Positions 1,683-33,062 of a stretch of DNA of 64,000 bases are shown here, piece after piece. The DNA comes from Acidobacteriaceae bacterium (lineage in GTDB: Bacteria; Acidobacteriota; Terriglobia; Bryobacterales; Bryobacteraceae): NCBI GenBank assembly GCA_019240405.1, contig JAFAYL010000047.1:1-64000 (forward strand), given 5' to 3'. The notes beneath the pieces are model-generated. The model saw only the letters and a program-made list of their open reading frames with translations. It was not told the DNA's origin and did no database searches. Position 1 is the first letter of the stretch, and every line of letters starts with the position of its first letter. Made by a program: the position numbers and the translations under genes.

Positions 1683-4600
1683 ATGAAAAAAATCTGTAAA
1701 ATGCTGGCTCACCGGCTAGCAGTGGTTTTGGGCGTGCTCACGCTTTTGATCGTCGTTGCGGCGCCGGCGGGAGCGCAGTTCAATGCGAGTCTGCAAGGCA
1801 CTATCACAGACGCGACGGGGGGCGTTATTCCCGGGGCACACGTAAAGCTTCTGAACAATGGCACACAAGCTACGCAAGAAGCGACTGCCAACGATCAGGG
1901 GTTTTATCGATTTAATCAGCTTCCAGCGGGCATGTACACGCTGACCGTTGATGCAACCGGCTTTGCGACGTCGAGTGTCACGGATGTGCAGGTGGTTGCG
2001 GATTTAGCGCAGACAAAGGACGTTACGTTGCAGGCGGGGAATATCCAAACTACCACGACCGTGACTGCCTCCGCCGTGCCCACGCTTCAAACAGCAGACG
2101 CGAGTGTCAGCGGAACGATCACGAGCCAGGCTATCGAGACATTGCCGACTTTCGGCCGCGATCCCTATGAGTTGGTGCGGACGATGCCGGGGATTGACGG
2201 AACAGGCGCAAGGAGCGGGAACGGACAAGCCGCCACGCTCGGCAACACTACTGGCCCGGGCGGTTCCAGCGTTTCGATTTTCCAAACAGAGAACCAATTG
2301 CAAGTGAGCTCAAGCGGTCAACGCGTGGAGCAGAACGTATTTCTGTTGGATGGCGTTTCAGTGAACAGTTTGGGATGGGGTGGCGCGGCGGTGGTGACGC
2401 CCAATTCGGAGTCGGTGCAGGATATTACGGTGATCACGAGCGATTATTTAGCCGAGGATGGCCGTGGGAGTGGCGCGCACATCAAGATAACGTCAAAAAG
2501 CGGTACGGATCAATTCCATGGGAGCGCCTTATTTTTGTATCAGGATCCTAACTTGAACGCATTCAACAAGTGGGGTGGCCCGGATAACGCGCCTCCGGTA
2601 CGAGTTCAAAATGCCTTTAGACAGTACGCTGGGAGTGTTGGCGGACCCATCAAAAAAGATAAATTGTTTTTCTTCGCGTCATACGAAGGTCTGCGCAATA
2701 AGAGCATTTCTTACGGACAAGAGTGGGTGATAACGCCTCAGACCCTGAAATTGATAGCTGCGCAGAACAACACAATGGGCAAGATCTTCAGCTCCGTGAA
2801 CAATATGCCGCGCATTGTAGCGGTGCTGGGAGGCCCGAGCACCACTTGCGCAGCGGTTTTCGGCAGCACTGCTTCGACGTTGTGTCGCGATGTGCCAGGT
2901 GGATTGGACGTTGGATCACCAGGCCCTGGTGTCGCCGGGACACCTTACTATCCGATACCAGCGCTAGGGCCCACGCCTGCGAAAAATTTGCCCTTGGCTA
3001 TCGGCGGCGGGTTTGATGGTGTTCCAGATCTGGAGTTTGTGCAATACTACCTTCCCTCAACCCAAAAAGGAAACCAGATCAATGGGCGTATCGATTACAA
3101 TCTCACTTCGAATGACCTGATTTTTGCGTCCGGATATTTTACTCACCTGAATTCGGTGTCTGCGGATGCCGCCTCCGCAGGAGCACCCGATACCGACGTG
3201 ACGTTTAAACCCGTAAACACGGCCATCACTGCCGGATATATCAAGACGATTAACGCGAGCACTATAAATGAACTGCGCGCGAATTTTACTCGATTCTTCG
3301 ACAATGGCGTGAGCGACAATCCAAATATCAACTGGGGCATTCCTTACATCAAGATGGAGTCTTACCCCTTCGGAGCTATTTACGTTGCAGGTGCTCCCCA
3401 AAGTCCCGACACACCCTCCGTTCTCGCCCAAAATACATACGAAGTGCGCGACACGTTGATCAAAGTTTGGGGCAATCATACGGTTCGCTTCGGGGGCAAT
3501 TATCGCAAGGAGCAGGACAATAACAACCTGTTTGGCTCGGTTCGGCCTATCTACTCTTTCTCGGGGCTTTGGAATTTAGCCAATGCCGCGCCGATTTTTG
3601 AGGGCATCTCCGCCAATGTGAATACGGGTGGACCGGGAAACGCGGCGCGCTATTACAGAGATTCAGACGATGCTCTGTTCGTACAGGATGACTGGCACGC
3701 CTCACCCAGCCTAACGCTGAATCTTGGATTGCGATGGGAGTACTTCGCGCCTGTCACCGAAAAGCAGGGAAATCTTGCGAACGTGTTCCTGTACGCTACC
3801 GGACCAGCGGCGCTCGCCAATTCCGCCGTGCGACACGTAGGCCAGCTATGGAATGACAACTGGAAGGACTTCATGCCCAAGATTGGGTTCGCATTTGCCC
3901 CGCTCGCTGCGCATGAGAGATTTGTGGTTCGGGGTGGGTTCGGCATTTCTTACAACCGTCAAAATATCAACATCTATGCCAACGGCGCGGAGGATATACC
4001 TAACAATTTCAATTTCAATCTTTGCTGCGGCACTGCTCCGAAGCCGTTCAGTTTCTCAACACCTTTCGCAGGCGGCAACATTCAGTTCTACACGGGCAGC
4101 AATAATTCACCTAACAGCTATCCGGCGAATTCACGTTTGGCTGTTGGCGTGAATCCGATAACCGGCACACCCAATGCGATGGGAGCCGGCACGCCACCGG
4201 CTGTCGAGGTTTACGGAGCTTGGCCCAATACCCCAGATGCGTATACGTACCTGTATTCATTCGAGACCCAGACCCAAGTTGCAAAGGATATCGCGTTTAT
4301 TCTGGGTTATCAGGGAGCAGTCAGTCATCACCTGATTCGGTTGGTGAATCAGAACTTCCTCTACTCAAACGCTGCGGGCACGGTCGCTAGCCCCTTCTTT
4401 GCAGCCTACATCCCGACTCCCGATGTCAATGCGTCTTACAATGCGATGTACGCCCGAATGTCTAAGACCTTCTCGATGGGATTTTCCGTGGATGCGACAT
4501 ACACGTGGAGTCACAGCATCGACATGCTGTCAGCTGAGGGACCGGGCGCGGTGACGAACCAAACGGATCCCGTGCACGCCCAGACTGACGAATACGGGGC

Positions 4601-5216
4601 ATCGGACTATGATTCGCGGCATCGATTTGTGGCGAGCGGTCTGTGGACGGTTCCGATCTTCCCGCACGATAAGGGATTCCTACACAGCGTATTCGGCGGG
4701 TGGCAACTGGGTGCAATCGTGACCGCATATTCCGGGTTTCCATGGACTCCCGTCACGGGCAGCCAGTCATCGGTCGCGGCCGTACCAGGAGCCGCTACGA
4801 TCGCGCCCACGCGCCCGGTCCAATACTTCAACAACGCGAATCCCAATACAAACTCAAACACGTGTTTTCAGAACGGCTGTGAGTTTGGTGGGACTAATCA
4901 AACTGTACCGATCGTAGGTACTAATTACTTCAACATCTCCCATCCGGGGCCGCCCGGAATCGGTCGTAATTCGTTTCGTGGGCCAGGGTTCTTCTCAACG
5001 GACGCAACACTTTCGAAGCGCTTCGCCCTTCCGTTCATAAACGAGGCTGCGGGAATCGAAGTTCGAGGAATGGCGTTCAACGTATTTAATCAGTTAAATC
5101 TGATTCCATTCCCATTCGGCGATAACGACACGAAAGTCGAGAATCCGAACTTCGGCCGGCCCACCGGGGCGCTAGCAGGGCGATCGATTGAATTACAAGC
5201 CAGGTTCACCTTCTAG
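1683..5216 (+). CDS. Oar-like TonB-dependent receptor with carboxypeptidase-regulatory domain
   Basis: Outer-membrane beta-barrel receptor of the large acidobacterial Oar/TonB-dependent type. Residues 1-32 form a signal peptide ending in AGAQ. Residues 33-120 are a carboxypeptidase-regulatory-like Ig domain (GTITDATGGVIPGAHVKL; GFYRFNQLPAGMYTLTV). A plug region follows, with the phrase VFLLDGVSVN, then a long barrel rich in aromatic beta strands (for example LNLGLRWEYFAPVTEKQGN) ending in a C-terminal Phe (ARFTF), the usual barrel terminus. The length of 1,177 residues fits this family. Such receptors import large or scarce substrates, often glycans, but the ligand is unknown. No TonB/ExbBD or SusD-like partner is adjacent. 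Confidence 0.92.
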   Translation: MKKICKMLAHRLAVVLGVLTLLIVVAAPAGAQFNASLQGTITDATGGVIPGAHVKLLNNGTQATQEATANDQGFYRFNQLPAGMYTLTVDATGFATSSVTDVQVVADLAQTKDVTLQAGNIQTTTTVTASAVPTLQTADASVSGTITSQAIETLPTFGRDPYELVRTMPGIDGTGARSGNGQAATLGNTTGPGGSSVSIFQTENQLQVSSSGQRVEQNVFLLDGVSVNSLGWGGAAVVTPNSESVQDITVITSDYLAEDGRGSGAHIKITSKSGTDQFHGSALFLYQDPNLNAFNKWGGPDNAPPVRVQNAFRQYAGSVGGPIKKDKLFFFASYEGLRNKSISYGQEWVITPQTLKLIAAQNNTMGKIFSSVNNMPRIVAVLGGPSTTCAAVFGSTASTLCRDVPGGLDVGSPGPGVAGTPYYPIPALGPTPAKNLPLAIGGGFDGVPDLEFVQYYLPSTQKGNQINGRIDYNLTSNDLIFASGYFTHLNSVSADAASAGAPDTDVTFKPVNTAITAGYIKTINASTINELRANFTRFFDNGVSDNPNINWGIPYIKMESYPFGAIYVAGAPQSPDTPSVLAQNTYEVRDTLIKVWGNHTVRFGGNYRKEQDNNNLFGSVRPIYSFSGLWNLANAAPIFEGISANVNTGGPGNAARYYRDSDDALFVQDDWHASPSLTLNLGLRWEYFAPVTEKQGNLANVFLYATGPAALANSAVRHVGQLWNDNWKDFMPKIGFAFAPLAAHERFVVRGGFGISYNRQNINIYANGAEDIPNNFNFNLCCGTAPKPFSFSTPFAGGNIQFYTGSNNSPNSYPANSRLAVGVNPITGTPNAMGAGTPPAVEVYGAWPNTPDAYTYLYSFETQTQVAKDIAFILGYQGAVSHHLIRLVNQNFLYSNAAGTVASPFFAAYIPTPDVNASYNAMYARMSKTFSMGFSVDATYTWSHSIDMLSAEGPGAVTNQTDPVHAQTDEYGASDYDSRHRFVASGLWTVPIFPHDKGFLHSVFGGWQLGAIVTAYSGFPWTPVTGSQSSVAAVPGAATIAPTRPVQYFNNANPNTNSNTCFQNGCEFGGTNQTVPIVGTNYFNISHPGPPGIGRNSFRGPGFFSTDATLSKRFALPFINEAAGIEVRGMAFNVFNQLNLIPFPFGDNDTKVENPNFGRPTGALAGRSIELQARFTF

Positions 5217-30566: not shown

Positions 30567-30989
30567 GTGTCGACTAATGTTGCAGCCGTAAGCCGCTTAA
30601 TTGGGCTAAAGGCGAAAAACCTAAACGAGCTAATTGGCGCGATTGAGCAAGGATTGCCATTTGAGAGCATCGACAGATTTCAGGCTATGACGGGACTGAG
30701 TCTTTCCGAAATAACAGAATTGCTCGGAATCCATTCCCGTACGGTCAGCCGGCGGCGAGAAAAGGGCAAGCTGGATCAATCCGAATCCGAGCGGCTCTTG
30801 CGAATGTCAGATTTGTACCGACAAGCGAATGCTCTATTCGAGGGCAACGAAGCGGGCGCCCGATCATGGTTGAAGCAACCGCAGCGCGCGCTCCGGGGGC
30901 AATCTCCCTGGGAATATGCCAAAACCGAAGTGGGGGCGCGGCGAGTAGAACAACTCATTGGACAACTGGAACACGGTGTCTTTAGTTAA
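30567..30989 (+). CDS. Xre/MbcA/ParS-type antitoxin (DUF2384)
   Basis: A 140-residue antitoxin of the RES-Xre class. The N-terminal half has a helix-turn-helix (LSLSEITELLGIHSRTVSRR, residues 49-68) and the C-terminal half the toxin-binding DUF2384 region (ANALFEGNEAGARSWLKQPQ, then ALRGQSPWEYAKTEVGARRV). The start is GTG. The gene ends 11 bases before the RES toxin gene. It should bind its own promoter, where a palindrome overlaps the -10 box. Confidence 0.85.
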   Translation: MSTNVAAVSRLIGLKAKNLNELIGAIEQGLPFESIDRFQAMTGLSLSEITELLGIHSRTVSRRREKGKLDQSESERLLRMSDLYRQANALFEGNEAGARSWLKQPQRALRGQSPWEYAKTEVGARRVEQLIGQLEHGVFS

Positions 30990-31000
30990 CCCCCAGGCAA

Positions 31001-31480
31001 TTGCGGTACCATCTGAGGCTTGTGCGGTCATGGCGCATTGTCAAAAAGAAATATCAACATACGGCATTTGATGGCTCGGGCGCCCGCTTGTATGGCGGCC
31101 GGTGGAATTTACCCGGCACTGCCGTTGTCTATACGGCATTCTCGCGATCCCTGGCGATTCTTGAGATCTTGGTTCATATGAATGCGTCGGGTTTGCTTGA
31201 GAGTTACGTCTTATGCCCCTGTGAATTCGATCGCGAATTCGTTCAACGCGTCAGTCCTGCCAGTCTGCCGTCGAAATGGCGCCAGAGTGGTGTTTCGGAC
31301 AAGATTCAAGTCTTCGGAGACGAGCTGATCCGACACGCGTCCGTACCTGTTCTCCAATTTCCCAGTGCGGTTGTACCGCAGGAAGAAAACTATTTGCTTC
31401 TGCCGGAACATCCACTTTTTATAAAGATTAGGATCGGAGAGCCGGAACCATTTCTGTTTGATCGGCGATTCCGCGCATGA
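31001..31480 (+). CDS. RES-domain toxin (NAD+-depleting)
   Basis: A 159-residue toxin with the Arg-Glu-Ser signature that names the family: R34 in YGGRWN, E55 in LAILEILVHM and S121 in FPSAVV. Characterised RES toxins (for example MbcT) degrade NAD+ by phosphorolysis or hydrolysis, and are held inactive by the Xre/DUF2384 antitoxin encoded just before. Its stop overlaps the ATG of the next gene, an NAD(P)H-dependent quinone oxidoreductase, by four bases, so translation continues into redox genes. Confidence 0.87.
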   Translation: MRYHLRLVRSWRIVKKKYQHTAFDGSGARLYGGRWNLPGTAVVYTAFSRSLAILEILVHMNASGLLESYVLCPCEFDREFVQRVSPASLPSKWRQSGVSDKIQVFGDELIRHASVPVLQFPSAVVPQEENYLLLPEHPLFIKIRIGEPEPFLFDRRFRA

Positions 31481-32457
31481 TCGCGATTGAGATTTCCTCG
31501 TTCGGTCCTCCCGATGTTCTAAGACCTGTGGAGCGGCCGAAGCCGGTGCTGAACGAAAATGAGGCGCTGGTTCATATTGAAGCTGCTGGTGTTGCGCGCG
31601 CGGACATCTTGCAGCGGCAGGGAAAGTATCCACCTCCGCCCGGAGCGTCTGACATTCCTGGTTTGGATGTCGCAGGGACCATTGAAGAAATCGGCGATGG
31701 CGTGCATAACTGGAATATCGGCGACCGGGTTTGCGCGATCCTCGCTGGCGGAGGTTATGCCGAATTTTGCGCAGTTCCGGCTGCGCAGGTGCTGCCGATT
31801 CCAGACGGCTGGAGCGCGCCGGAGGCCACAACACTGCCAGAAAACATCTTCACGGTTTACGACAATCTTGTCATTCGCGCCGGCTTGAAGAGGGGAGAAA
31901 CGGTGCTGATCCATGGGGGCACCAGCGGTGTCGGGAGCATGGCGATTATGCTTAGTCGCGCATGCTCCGCACGGCCGATTGTCACAGCGGGTAGCCGCGA
32001 AAAATGCGATGCAGCGCTCCGATTCGGCGCTGAATACGCCATTAATTATAAGGAGCAGGATTTTGTTGCAGAAACACTACGGATCACGGAAGGCCGGGGA
32101 GCAAATGTTGTTCTCGATATCGTCGGTGGTCCGTATTTAGAAAGAAATGTCGAGGTGCTTGCCGTGGAGGGGCGACTGTCGATAGTCTCCACGCAAGGCG
32201 GCCGAACCGGACAGCTTGAGATCGGCAAGCTCATGGGGAAACGGGGCAGAGTGCTCGCGTCAACGCTGCGCGCCAGGACTCCCGAGGAGAAGGGCGAAAT
32301 CGCACGCCGGTTACGGCGCGACATCTGGCCGATACTTGCCGCTAAGAACGTGATACGGCCCATCATCGACTCAACGTTCCCGCTGCGCGACGCGCGGATG
32401 GCCCACGAGCGAATGGAAGGCGGAAAACATATGGGGAAAATTGTCCTGCTAACATAA
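31477..32457 (+). CDS. NAD(P)H:quinone oxidoreductase (zinc-free MDR family)
   Basis: A 326-residue medium-chain reductase of the quinone oxidoreductase/PIG3 type. The N-terminal GroES-like domain holds EAAGVARADILQRQGKYPPP and GLDVAGTIEEIGDGV. The Rossmann motif is HGGTSGVGSMAIML (around residues 145-158). No catalytic or structural zinc cysteines are present. It reduces quinones or alpha,beta-unsaturated carbonyls with NADPH. It overlaps the RES toxin gene by four bases and ends eight bases before an AhpD-like gene, so these may form one redox-related transcript. Confidence 0.88.
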   Translation: MIAIEISSFGPPDVLRPVERPKPVLNENEALVHIEAAGVARADILQRQGKYPPPPGASDIPGLDVAGTIEEIGDGVHNWNIGDRVCAILAGGGYAEFCAVPAAQVLPIPDGWSAPEATTLPENIFTVYDNLVIRAGLKRGETVLIHGGTSGVGSMAIMLSRACSARPIVTAGSREKCDAALRFGAEYAINYKEQDFVAETLRITEGRGANVVLDIVGGPYLERNVEVLAVEGRLSIVSTQGGRTGQLEIGKLMGKRGRVLASTLRARTPEEKGEIARRLRRDIWPILAAKNVIRPIIDSTFPLRDARMAHERMEGGKHMGKIVLLT

Positions 32458-32465
32458 CGAAACGA

Positions 32466-33062
32466 ATGGAACCGATGTTTTTACCCGATGTCGAGGATAC
32501 TCGCGCGCCAAGTCCTTATCTCGATGCGATCCGGGCGATGAAGACGGCGGGCCCGGAATATCCGCAAATCTGGCATATGTTTGCATTCCTGCCGCGCGCG
32601 ACGGAGCATTTAGCGCGATTCACCCAGGAGATTATGCGTGAAGCGGCCCCGCTCAGTCCAGGACTTCGGGAGTTAATCGCCGCGTATACATCTCATGAGA
32701 ATCAGTGCCCGTTTTGAGTGAAGTCGCACGCCGCAGTTGCGGCGGAACTGTTAGGAAGTGAAGAGTTGGTTTGGGGCGTACTGCGCGATCTCGATAGCTC
32801 AGAACTGTCAGAGAAAGACAAGGCGCTATTTCGATTCGTCAGTAAAGTGAATCGTAATTCGCAGGAAATCGCCGCGGCGGATATGAAACCGCTGTATGCT
32901 TGCGGATGGACTGACGAAGCAATCTATTACGCCATAACGGTGTGCGCCCTGTTCAATTTCTACAATCGCTGGGTAGATGCGTCTGGCGTTCACGCTCTTT
33001 CAGACGAGGCGCACCGGCAGGGCGGAAAGCGCATGGCAGCACAGGGTTACGTTCGAAAGTAG
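32466..33062 (+). CDS. AhpD/carboxymuconolactone-decarboxylase-like protein, probable selenoprotein (in-frame TGA at Sec84)
   Basis: Two frames (32466-32717 and 32718-33062) are in register and form one 198-residue AhpD-family protein if TGA 32715-32717 is read as selenocysteine. The region reads ENQCPF-[TGA]-VKSHAAVA. Against AhpD (Glu118, Cys130, Cys133, His137) the residues are Glu69, Cys81, position 84 and His88, with identical spacing, so the TGA replaces the peroxidatic Cys of the CxxC. The rest of the fold is intact (KDKALFRFVSKVNRN; YYAITVCALFNFYNRWVDAS). A hairpin fitting a bacterial SECIS follows the TGA. The product would be a peroxidase or thiol-oxidoreductase. The alternative is a nonsense mutation or sequencing error; Sec genes are not in the window. 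The start could also be the ATG at 32475. Confidence 0.72.
32729..32744 (+). promoter_or_regulatory. Candidate bacterial SECIS element
   Basis: A perfect 6-bp stem, CGCCGC-AGTT-GCGGCG, starts 11 nt after the TGA; the loop begins 17 nt after it. With A-T pairing the loop closes to GT. Bacterial SECIS elements (for example fdhF) sit at this distance and carry a G in the first loop positions. Caveat: the arms encode His-Ala-Ala-Val-Ala-Ala, a conserved stretch whose alanine codons favour such palindromes by chance. Confidence 0.55.

Follow-up and report, generated by a model that had tools for sequence, protein, structure and literature searches.

A predicted selenocysteine-containing AhpD-like protein with a CPFU motif in Acidobacteriota

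Described AhpD-like CxxU proteins and the gene in the window

AhpD-like selenoproteins with a CxxU motif were reported in the 2005 Sargasso Sea study (PMC1088965) and in the 2008 GOS study (PMC2398784), and 'AhpD-like protein, TIGR01926, CxxU' appears among the selenoproteins tabulated in a 2026 review, with credit to that review's reference 59 (PMC13188914). For Acidobacteriota, a 2025 paper, in its available portion, gives three known selenoprotein genes in the genome of Occallatibacter riparius (PMC12013277). In M. tuberculosis AhpD, Cys130 and Cys133 are both responsible for activity, according to the accessible part of PMC3141380. Since AhpD-like CxxU proteins were reported in 2005 and 2008 and have an entry in the review, the gene treated here belongs to a known kind, of which it is, on comparative sequence evidence, a well-supported further member; our literature search found nothing on its CPFU clade in particular. 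The new details concern the apparent exchange of selenocysteine (Sec, U) and Cys inside the subfamily and the frequent presence of an MFS transporter gene next to the gene in relatives.

The gene lies on the forward strand at 32466..33062 of the window, that is, of the whole 64,000-nt stretch analysed (contig JAFAYL010000047.1 of assembly GCA_019240405.1). From an ATG at 32466 to a TAG at 33060-33062 it would encode an AhpD-like, peroxidase-related protein (TIGR01926) of 198 residues, with a TGA at 32715..32717 read as selenocysteine, residue 84, in the motif C81-P-F-U84-VKS-H88. The earlier note had described two frames in register parted by this single TGA, and we found the same: the halves, of 83 residues and 114 codons, share one frame with no further stop. 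Plain ORF finding cuts the gene at the TGA, so that such a selenoprotein is easily missed or taken for a pseudogene.

The predicted protein scored 35.5 bits against Pfam CMD PF02627 (cut-off 23) and 98.4 bits against the NCBIfam model TIGR01926, peroxidase-related enzyme (curated cut-off 81.8), making it a member of the latter family; all 28 sequences of our alignment A1 matched the TIGR01926 model at E 0.001 or better. With the TIGR01926 CxxU selenoprotein of the review (PMC13188914, available portion) it shares the family model above cut-off, the CxxU motif and the second-place Sec, but its clade, with CPFU, is of an acidobacterial type. The review gives MCB9421940.1 as its example, which is likened to the window protein here by family model and motif. 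The CFYUT (seleno)protein NF041238 (AhpD_rel_CFYUT) likewise shares the AhpD domain, CxxU and the Sec position, but at 36 bits the window protein falls far under that model's cut-off of 175 and is not a member.

An AlphaFold2 model, computed from a 28-sequence alignment with Sec written as Cys, was all-helical with pLDDT 95.4 and pTM 0.92. Its nearest solved folds by Foldseek were the peroxidase-related AhpD proteins 6k40, 2prr, 3c1l and 2pfx (best chains E 1.8e-9 to 9.9e-9, TM 0.76-0.80 by query length, 23-26% identity), which have the same all-helical fold and an E...CxxC...H site. By sequence profile the recoded residue aligns with the second Cys of the CxxC in 2pfx and 3c1l, which thus have Cys where the window protein would have Sec. 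M. tuberculosis AhpD (1gu9/1knc) matched the model's structure weakly (E from 0.14 upwards) and has His132 where Phe83 stands here, but it shares the Glu-12-Cys-3-Cys-4-His spacing; its motif lies nearer the other chain end than in PA0269-type proteins (both from the accessible part of PMC3141380).

The active-site spacing proposed in the earlier note was borne out: Cys81 (codon 32706..32708) lies three residues before U84, His88 (32727..32729) four after it, and Glu69 (32670..32672) twelve before Cys81, and the Glu118, Cys130, Cys133 and His137 of AhpD with which the note had compared them agree with the accessible part of PMC3141380. These four core relay residues (E69, C81, Sec or Cys at 84, H88) are invariant in A1; by homology, Glu69 and His88 would belong to the proton relay, and Cys81 would be the partner thiol of CxxU, presumably in a resolving role. 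The fifth AhpD relay residue (His132; Tyr50 in PA0269) is not matched, as Phe83 occupies that position, which the accessible part of PMC3141380 describes as not absolutely conserved.

By analogy with AhpD, the Sec84 selenol would attack the oxidant, a hydroperoxide or something similar; an Se-S bond between Sec84 and Cys81 would follow, with the aid of Glu69 and His88, and a thiol or dithiol would restore the enzyme. The earlier note had named U84 the peroxidatic residue; its part as the attacking residue is proposed from homology to the CxxC of AhpD. A peroxidase function is likewise proposed by analogy.

Reading of the internal TGA

The same TGA stands at the residue-84 codon in all 37 relatives recovered from genome contigs, 35 of them with CPFU and two (L041 and L043) with CLFU, and retrieval was independent of it: of the six search patterns, five did not cover this codon and the sixth had Cys at it. 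The stretches matched in these 37 loci contained neither a frameshift nor another internal stop. Acidobacterial names are on 35 of the records, the exceptions being L016 (Chthoniobacterales) and L021 (Proteobacteria). In 26 of the 37 relatives the TGA and a C-terminal motif lie the same distance apart, and for these the median pN/pS over residues 31-195 was 0.167 before the TGA and 0.223 after it; dS is saturated in many pairs, so these values show just that both halves look under purifying selection.

The genome, in 63 contigs with the selenoprotein gene on C12, holds all four of the Sec genes that the earlier note had named: tRNA-Sec (selC) on C57 (75 bits vs. a gathering score of 47; SeC(tca) by ARAGORN), selB on C35 (363 bits vs. 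242, with the SelB winged-helix domain PF09107), selA on C5 (508 bits vs. 268) and selD on C56 (349 bits vs. 125). The tRNA-Sec model had a second match just above its gathering score of 47 (L005, C56:222206-222291, 49.2 bits), perhaps a serine or other long-arm tRNA. A probable second selenoprotein is a formate dehydrogenase alpha subunit (L118, C47, approximately 3051-3803), whose gene has an in-frame TGA in RIUHSSTVPGL and, downstream of it, a hairpin with a GGTC loop; the match of its 749-residue stretch to NF041513 is strong but partial, at 1321 bits against a cut-off of 1400 meant for the whole protein. G+C in the stretches with the sel genes and the formate dehydrogenase was 0.551-0.564, near the 0.548 of the window, so nothing there suggests a foreign source.

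Downstream of the TGA lies a putative bacterial SECIS upper stem-loop at 32729..32744 on the forward strand (stem 32729-32734 with 32739-32744, apical loop AGTT at 32735-32738), starting 11 nt after the TGA and with 17 nt between the TGA and the loop. Published bSECIS constraints, as quoted in the available portion of PMC13188914, are a loop of 3-9 nt whose first or second base is a G, an upper stem of 4-16 bp, a distance of 16-37 nt between UGA and loop, and an MFE of at most -7.5; the window hairpin, with 6 bp, a 4-nt loop, G second in the loop and -14.3 kcal/mol over the 43 nt that follow the TGA, lies within all of them. Folding of this single sequence was rejected as SECIS evidence (z -0.24; 73 of 200 dinucleotide shuffles fold as well), and because the window hairpin is no more stable than shuffles we turned to covariation, testing synonymous positions since the protein motif HAAVAA itself forces some of the pairs.

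Loop positions 32735 and 32738 covary too, adding a seventh pair to the six of the stem. Among 46 distinct TGA sequences, 98.8% of the 322 cells pair and four of the seven pairs change on both sides; 25 cells had double changes vs. 6.8 in shuffles (none of 500 shuffles was as high), and slid versions of the hairpin did far worse. Pairs 32735-32738 (44 of 46 Watson-Crick vs. 22.7 expected) and 32732-32741 (44 of 46 vs. 35.9) ranked first and second among the 171 synonymous-position pairs. The 18 Cys sequences had no Watson-Crick excess at the SECIS pairs. Of the 46 TGA sequences, 44 had the helix (at least five of six pairs) in their MFE fold, and of the 18 Cys sequences none had it. When the set was enlarged to 88 distinct TGA sequences, 32735-32738 was Watson-Crick in 81, and the outermost pair, 32729-32744, was less well kept (75 Watson-Crick, 84 if G-U is counted). 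Minimum numbers of changes between Watson-Crick types on the tree were at least 14 at 32735-32738, five at 32732-32741 and two at 32729-32744; with so many changes of type, kinship alone does not explain the covariation. The first or second loop base was a G in all but one of the 88 (87 sequences), and the commonest loop was GGTC (53 of 88), the same as in the formate dehydrogenase hairpin of the window's own genome.

We weighed four other readings of the locus. That the TGA is a real stop in a pseudogene, or a sequencing or assembly error for the TGC of a Cys gene, might be entertained for a draft genome of 63 contigs (95.79% complete, 3.84% contaminated), but it is largely contradicted by the identical TGA in 37 of 37 records and by SECIS covariation that has no counterpart in Cys homologues, and both gene halves are conserved; we regard it as having next to no probability. 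Decoding of the TGA as Trp or another residue, or readthrough without selenium, would leave a frame that looks identical under another code; against it stand the complete Sec pathway with its tca anticodon, the alignment of the TGA with the catalytic Cys of homologues and the fixed position of the SECIS after the TGA, which make this very improbable. Equally slight is the chance of two separate proteins, an 83-aa N-terminal part and a C-terminal part from the GTG at 32718: both ORFs are listed and that GTG directly follows the TGA, but relatives have CTG, ATC, ACG and other codons in its place, the two catalytic residues would end up in different proteins, and AlphaFold2 gives one continuous confident fold. 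The view of the earlier note, a selenoprotein rather than a pseudogene, is thus upheld by the sel genes, the TGA of the 37 relatives and the covarying hairpin, and we are highly confident that the gene encodes a Sec-containing AhpD-like (peroxidase-related, CMD-superfamily) thiol/selenol oxidoreductase. On this comparative evidence, SelB and Sec-tRNA-Sec would bind the hairpin at 32729-32744 and the UGA at 32715 would be decoded as selenocysteine.

A selenoprotein that is no peroxidase but, say, a reductase, an isomerase or a dehalogenase-like CMD enzyme is the one alternative with appreciable weight. Functions differ among proteins with CMD-superfamily folds, the weaker matches include the debrominase Bmp8, and the gene often adjoins receptor and transporter genes in relatives; yet the four core relay residues are invariant in A1 and the best structural matches are AhpD or peroxidase-related proteins, and on balance we think such an activity unlikely.

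Sec and Cys forms across genomes

We sampled the phylum and the class for forms with and without the TGA. Among 396 genomes of the phylum, 115 had a match, mostly to distant relatives, and selA was found, among the matches listed, in 75 of 81 TGA-bearing genomes vs. two of 21 with stop-free forms only (Fisher P = 1.6e-13, in a test that ignores kinship, the genomes not being independent). Here a genome counts as 'TGA-bearing' if a TGA falls within the match, with the exact codon looked at for fetched loci only; outside the 81 and 21, 12 of the 115 genomes had no row among the matches listed and one had a TAG form only. The six TGA-bearing genomes in which selA had no match were G057, G080, G104, G140, G266 and G341; G057, G080 and G266 are <80% complete, and G341 is 97% complete.

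For the close subfamily in the class, matches occurred in 89 of 399 genomes and the TGA form in 72 of 399 (E 1e-40 or better). With a selA threshold of E 1e-30 or better, selA was present in 66 of the 68 TGA-bearing genomes tested (G542, among the 66, has two pieces under the cut-off) vs. seven of 17 stop-free-only genomes, which still retain it (Fisher P = 3.4e-7). The test left out the TGA genomes G487, G512, G521 and G545, and counted G539 and G554, which carry both forms, as TGA-bearing; selA had no match in the TGA-bearing G648 and G742. Cys was read at the codon in 16 of the 17 stop-free-only genomes, the exception being G447, with L169, where the motif was not resolved. As Sec and Cys forms thus occur in genomes with and without selA, the exchange can be tested within one family.

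In a first tree of 77 rows, four Cys rows lay inside the Sec clade, but the AU test did not support this: joining the subfamily's 47 Sec rows in a single clade gave a likelihood 3.7 lnL units higher (P = 0.56). In a larger tree of 115 rows, of a quick kind and with the CxxU columns masked, the subfamily's 19 Cys rows (10 with CEFC) fell in several places; L135, L154 and L169 were dropped from it, and L086 was dropped because its motif was not found by pattern. For these 115 rows the test rejected a single Sec clade, whose lnL was lower by 70.5 (P = 0.0082), but it did not reject holding out only L157 and a few basal Cys rows (P = 0.075), or only the 14-row Cys clade and the basal Cys rows (P = 0.078). 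With a single Sec clade rejected for 115 rows and not for 77, more than one exchange between Sec and Cys is supported by the sequences of the larger set only. L157, a CPFC form from genome G410, which has selA, clusters with Sec rows in which K-Y-H likewise follows the motif (SH-aLRT 93), and we mark it as a candidate Sec-to-Cys change.

The available portion of PMC13188914 describes documented Sec-to-Cys conversions as primarily limited to FdhA and SelD. We tentatively suggest, as a possibility somewhat short of an even chance, that the CPFU protein is an old acidobacterial selenoenzyme in which repeated changes from Sec to Cys were accompanied by decay of the SECIS pairing and, in many cases, by loss of selA, and that in part of the clade it belongs to a unit of outer-membrane receptor, selenoenzyme and MFS transporter for uptake of a specific compound. 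If this is true, the subfamily offers a natural Sec-to-Cys series outside FdhA and SelD.

A 65% identical CPFU copy (L126, NZ_CP007130.1), unannotated in its record, lies on the 1 Mb plasmid 2 of Gemmatirosa kalamazoonensis, an isolate of Gemmatimonadota, and groups with acidobacterial rows in the 115-row tree, which suggests transfer between phyla. More distant AhpD-like genes of the same phylum as the window, approximately 30% identical, have a TGA at the second CxxC position within CFYU, CHYU or CGYU (L094, L096, L098, L100, L101, L106, L107, L109, L110 and L111), and from their sequences may be further AhpD-like selenoprotein lineages. Twenty regions were taken up (19 with TGA, one with Cys), the motif being resolved in 10 of the TGA regions and in the Cys one, with the other nine left out.

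Neighbouring genes

An MFS transporter gene stands directly downstream in 17 of the 37 relatives' loci (34 of which have at least 1 kb downstream), and a CarboxypepD_reg/OMP_b-brl_4 TonB-type outer-membrane receptor gene directly upstream in nine of the 37 (34 with at least 1 kb upstream). Because of these neighbours, the enzyme in many relatives may act on an imported compound or protect during its uptake, and the neighbours hint at where the substrate might be sought. The window copy is adjoined by neither an MFS transporter gene nor a receptor gene. Farther off in the window, 1692-2702 and 3414-5159 weakly resemble, at 28% and 24% identity, the outer-membrane receptor encoded upstream of the selenoprotein gene in some relatives.

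In the window, a gene of the zinc-type alcohol dehydrogenase/quinone oxidoreductase family (31477..32457, forward strand) ends 8 nt before the selenoprotein gene, with which it is probably co-transcribed. As a conserved partner this gene was rejected: a tblastn comparison with 66 loci (L012-L048 and L065-L093, some of them short) gave no match at E 1e-8. Upstream of it on the same strand, at 30567-31480, are an Xre/MbcA/ParS antitoxin gene and then a RES-domain toxin gene, a pair that overlaps the quinone oxidoreductase family gene by 4 bases.
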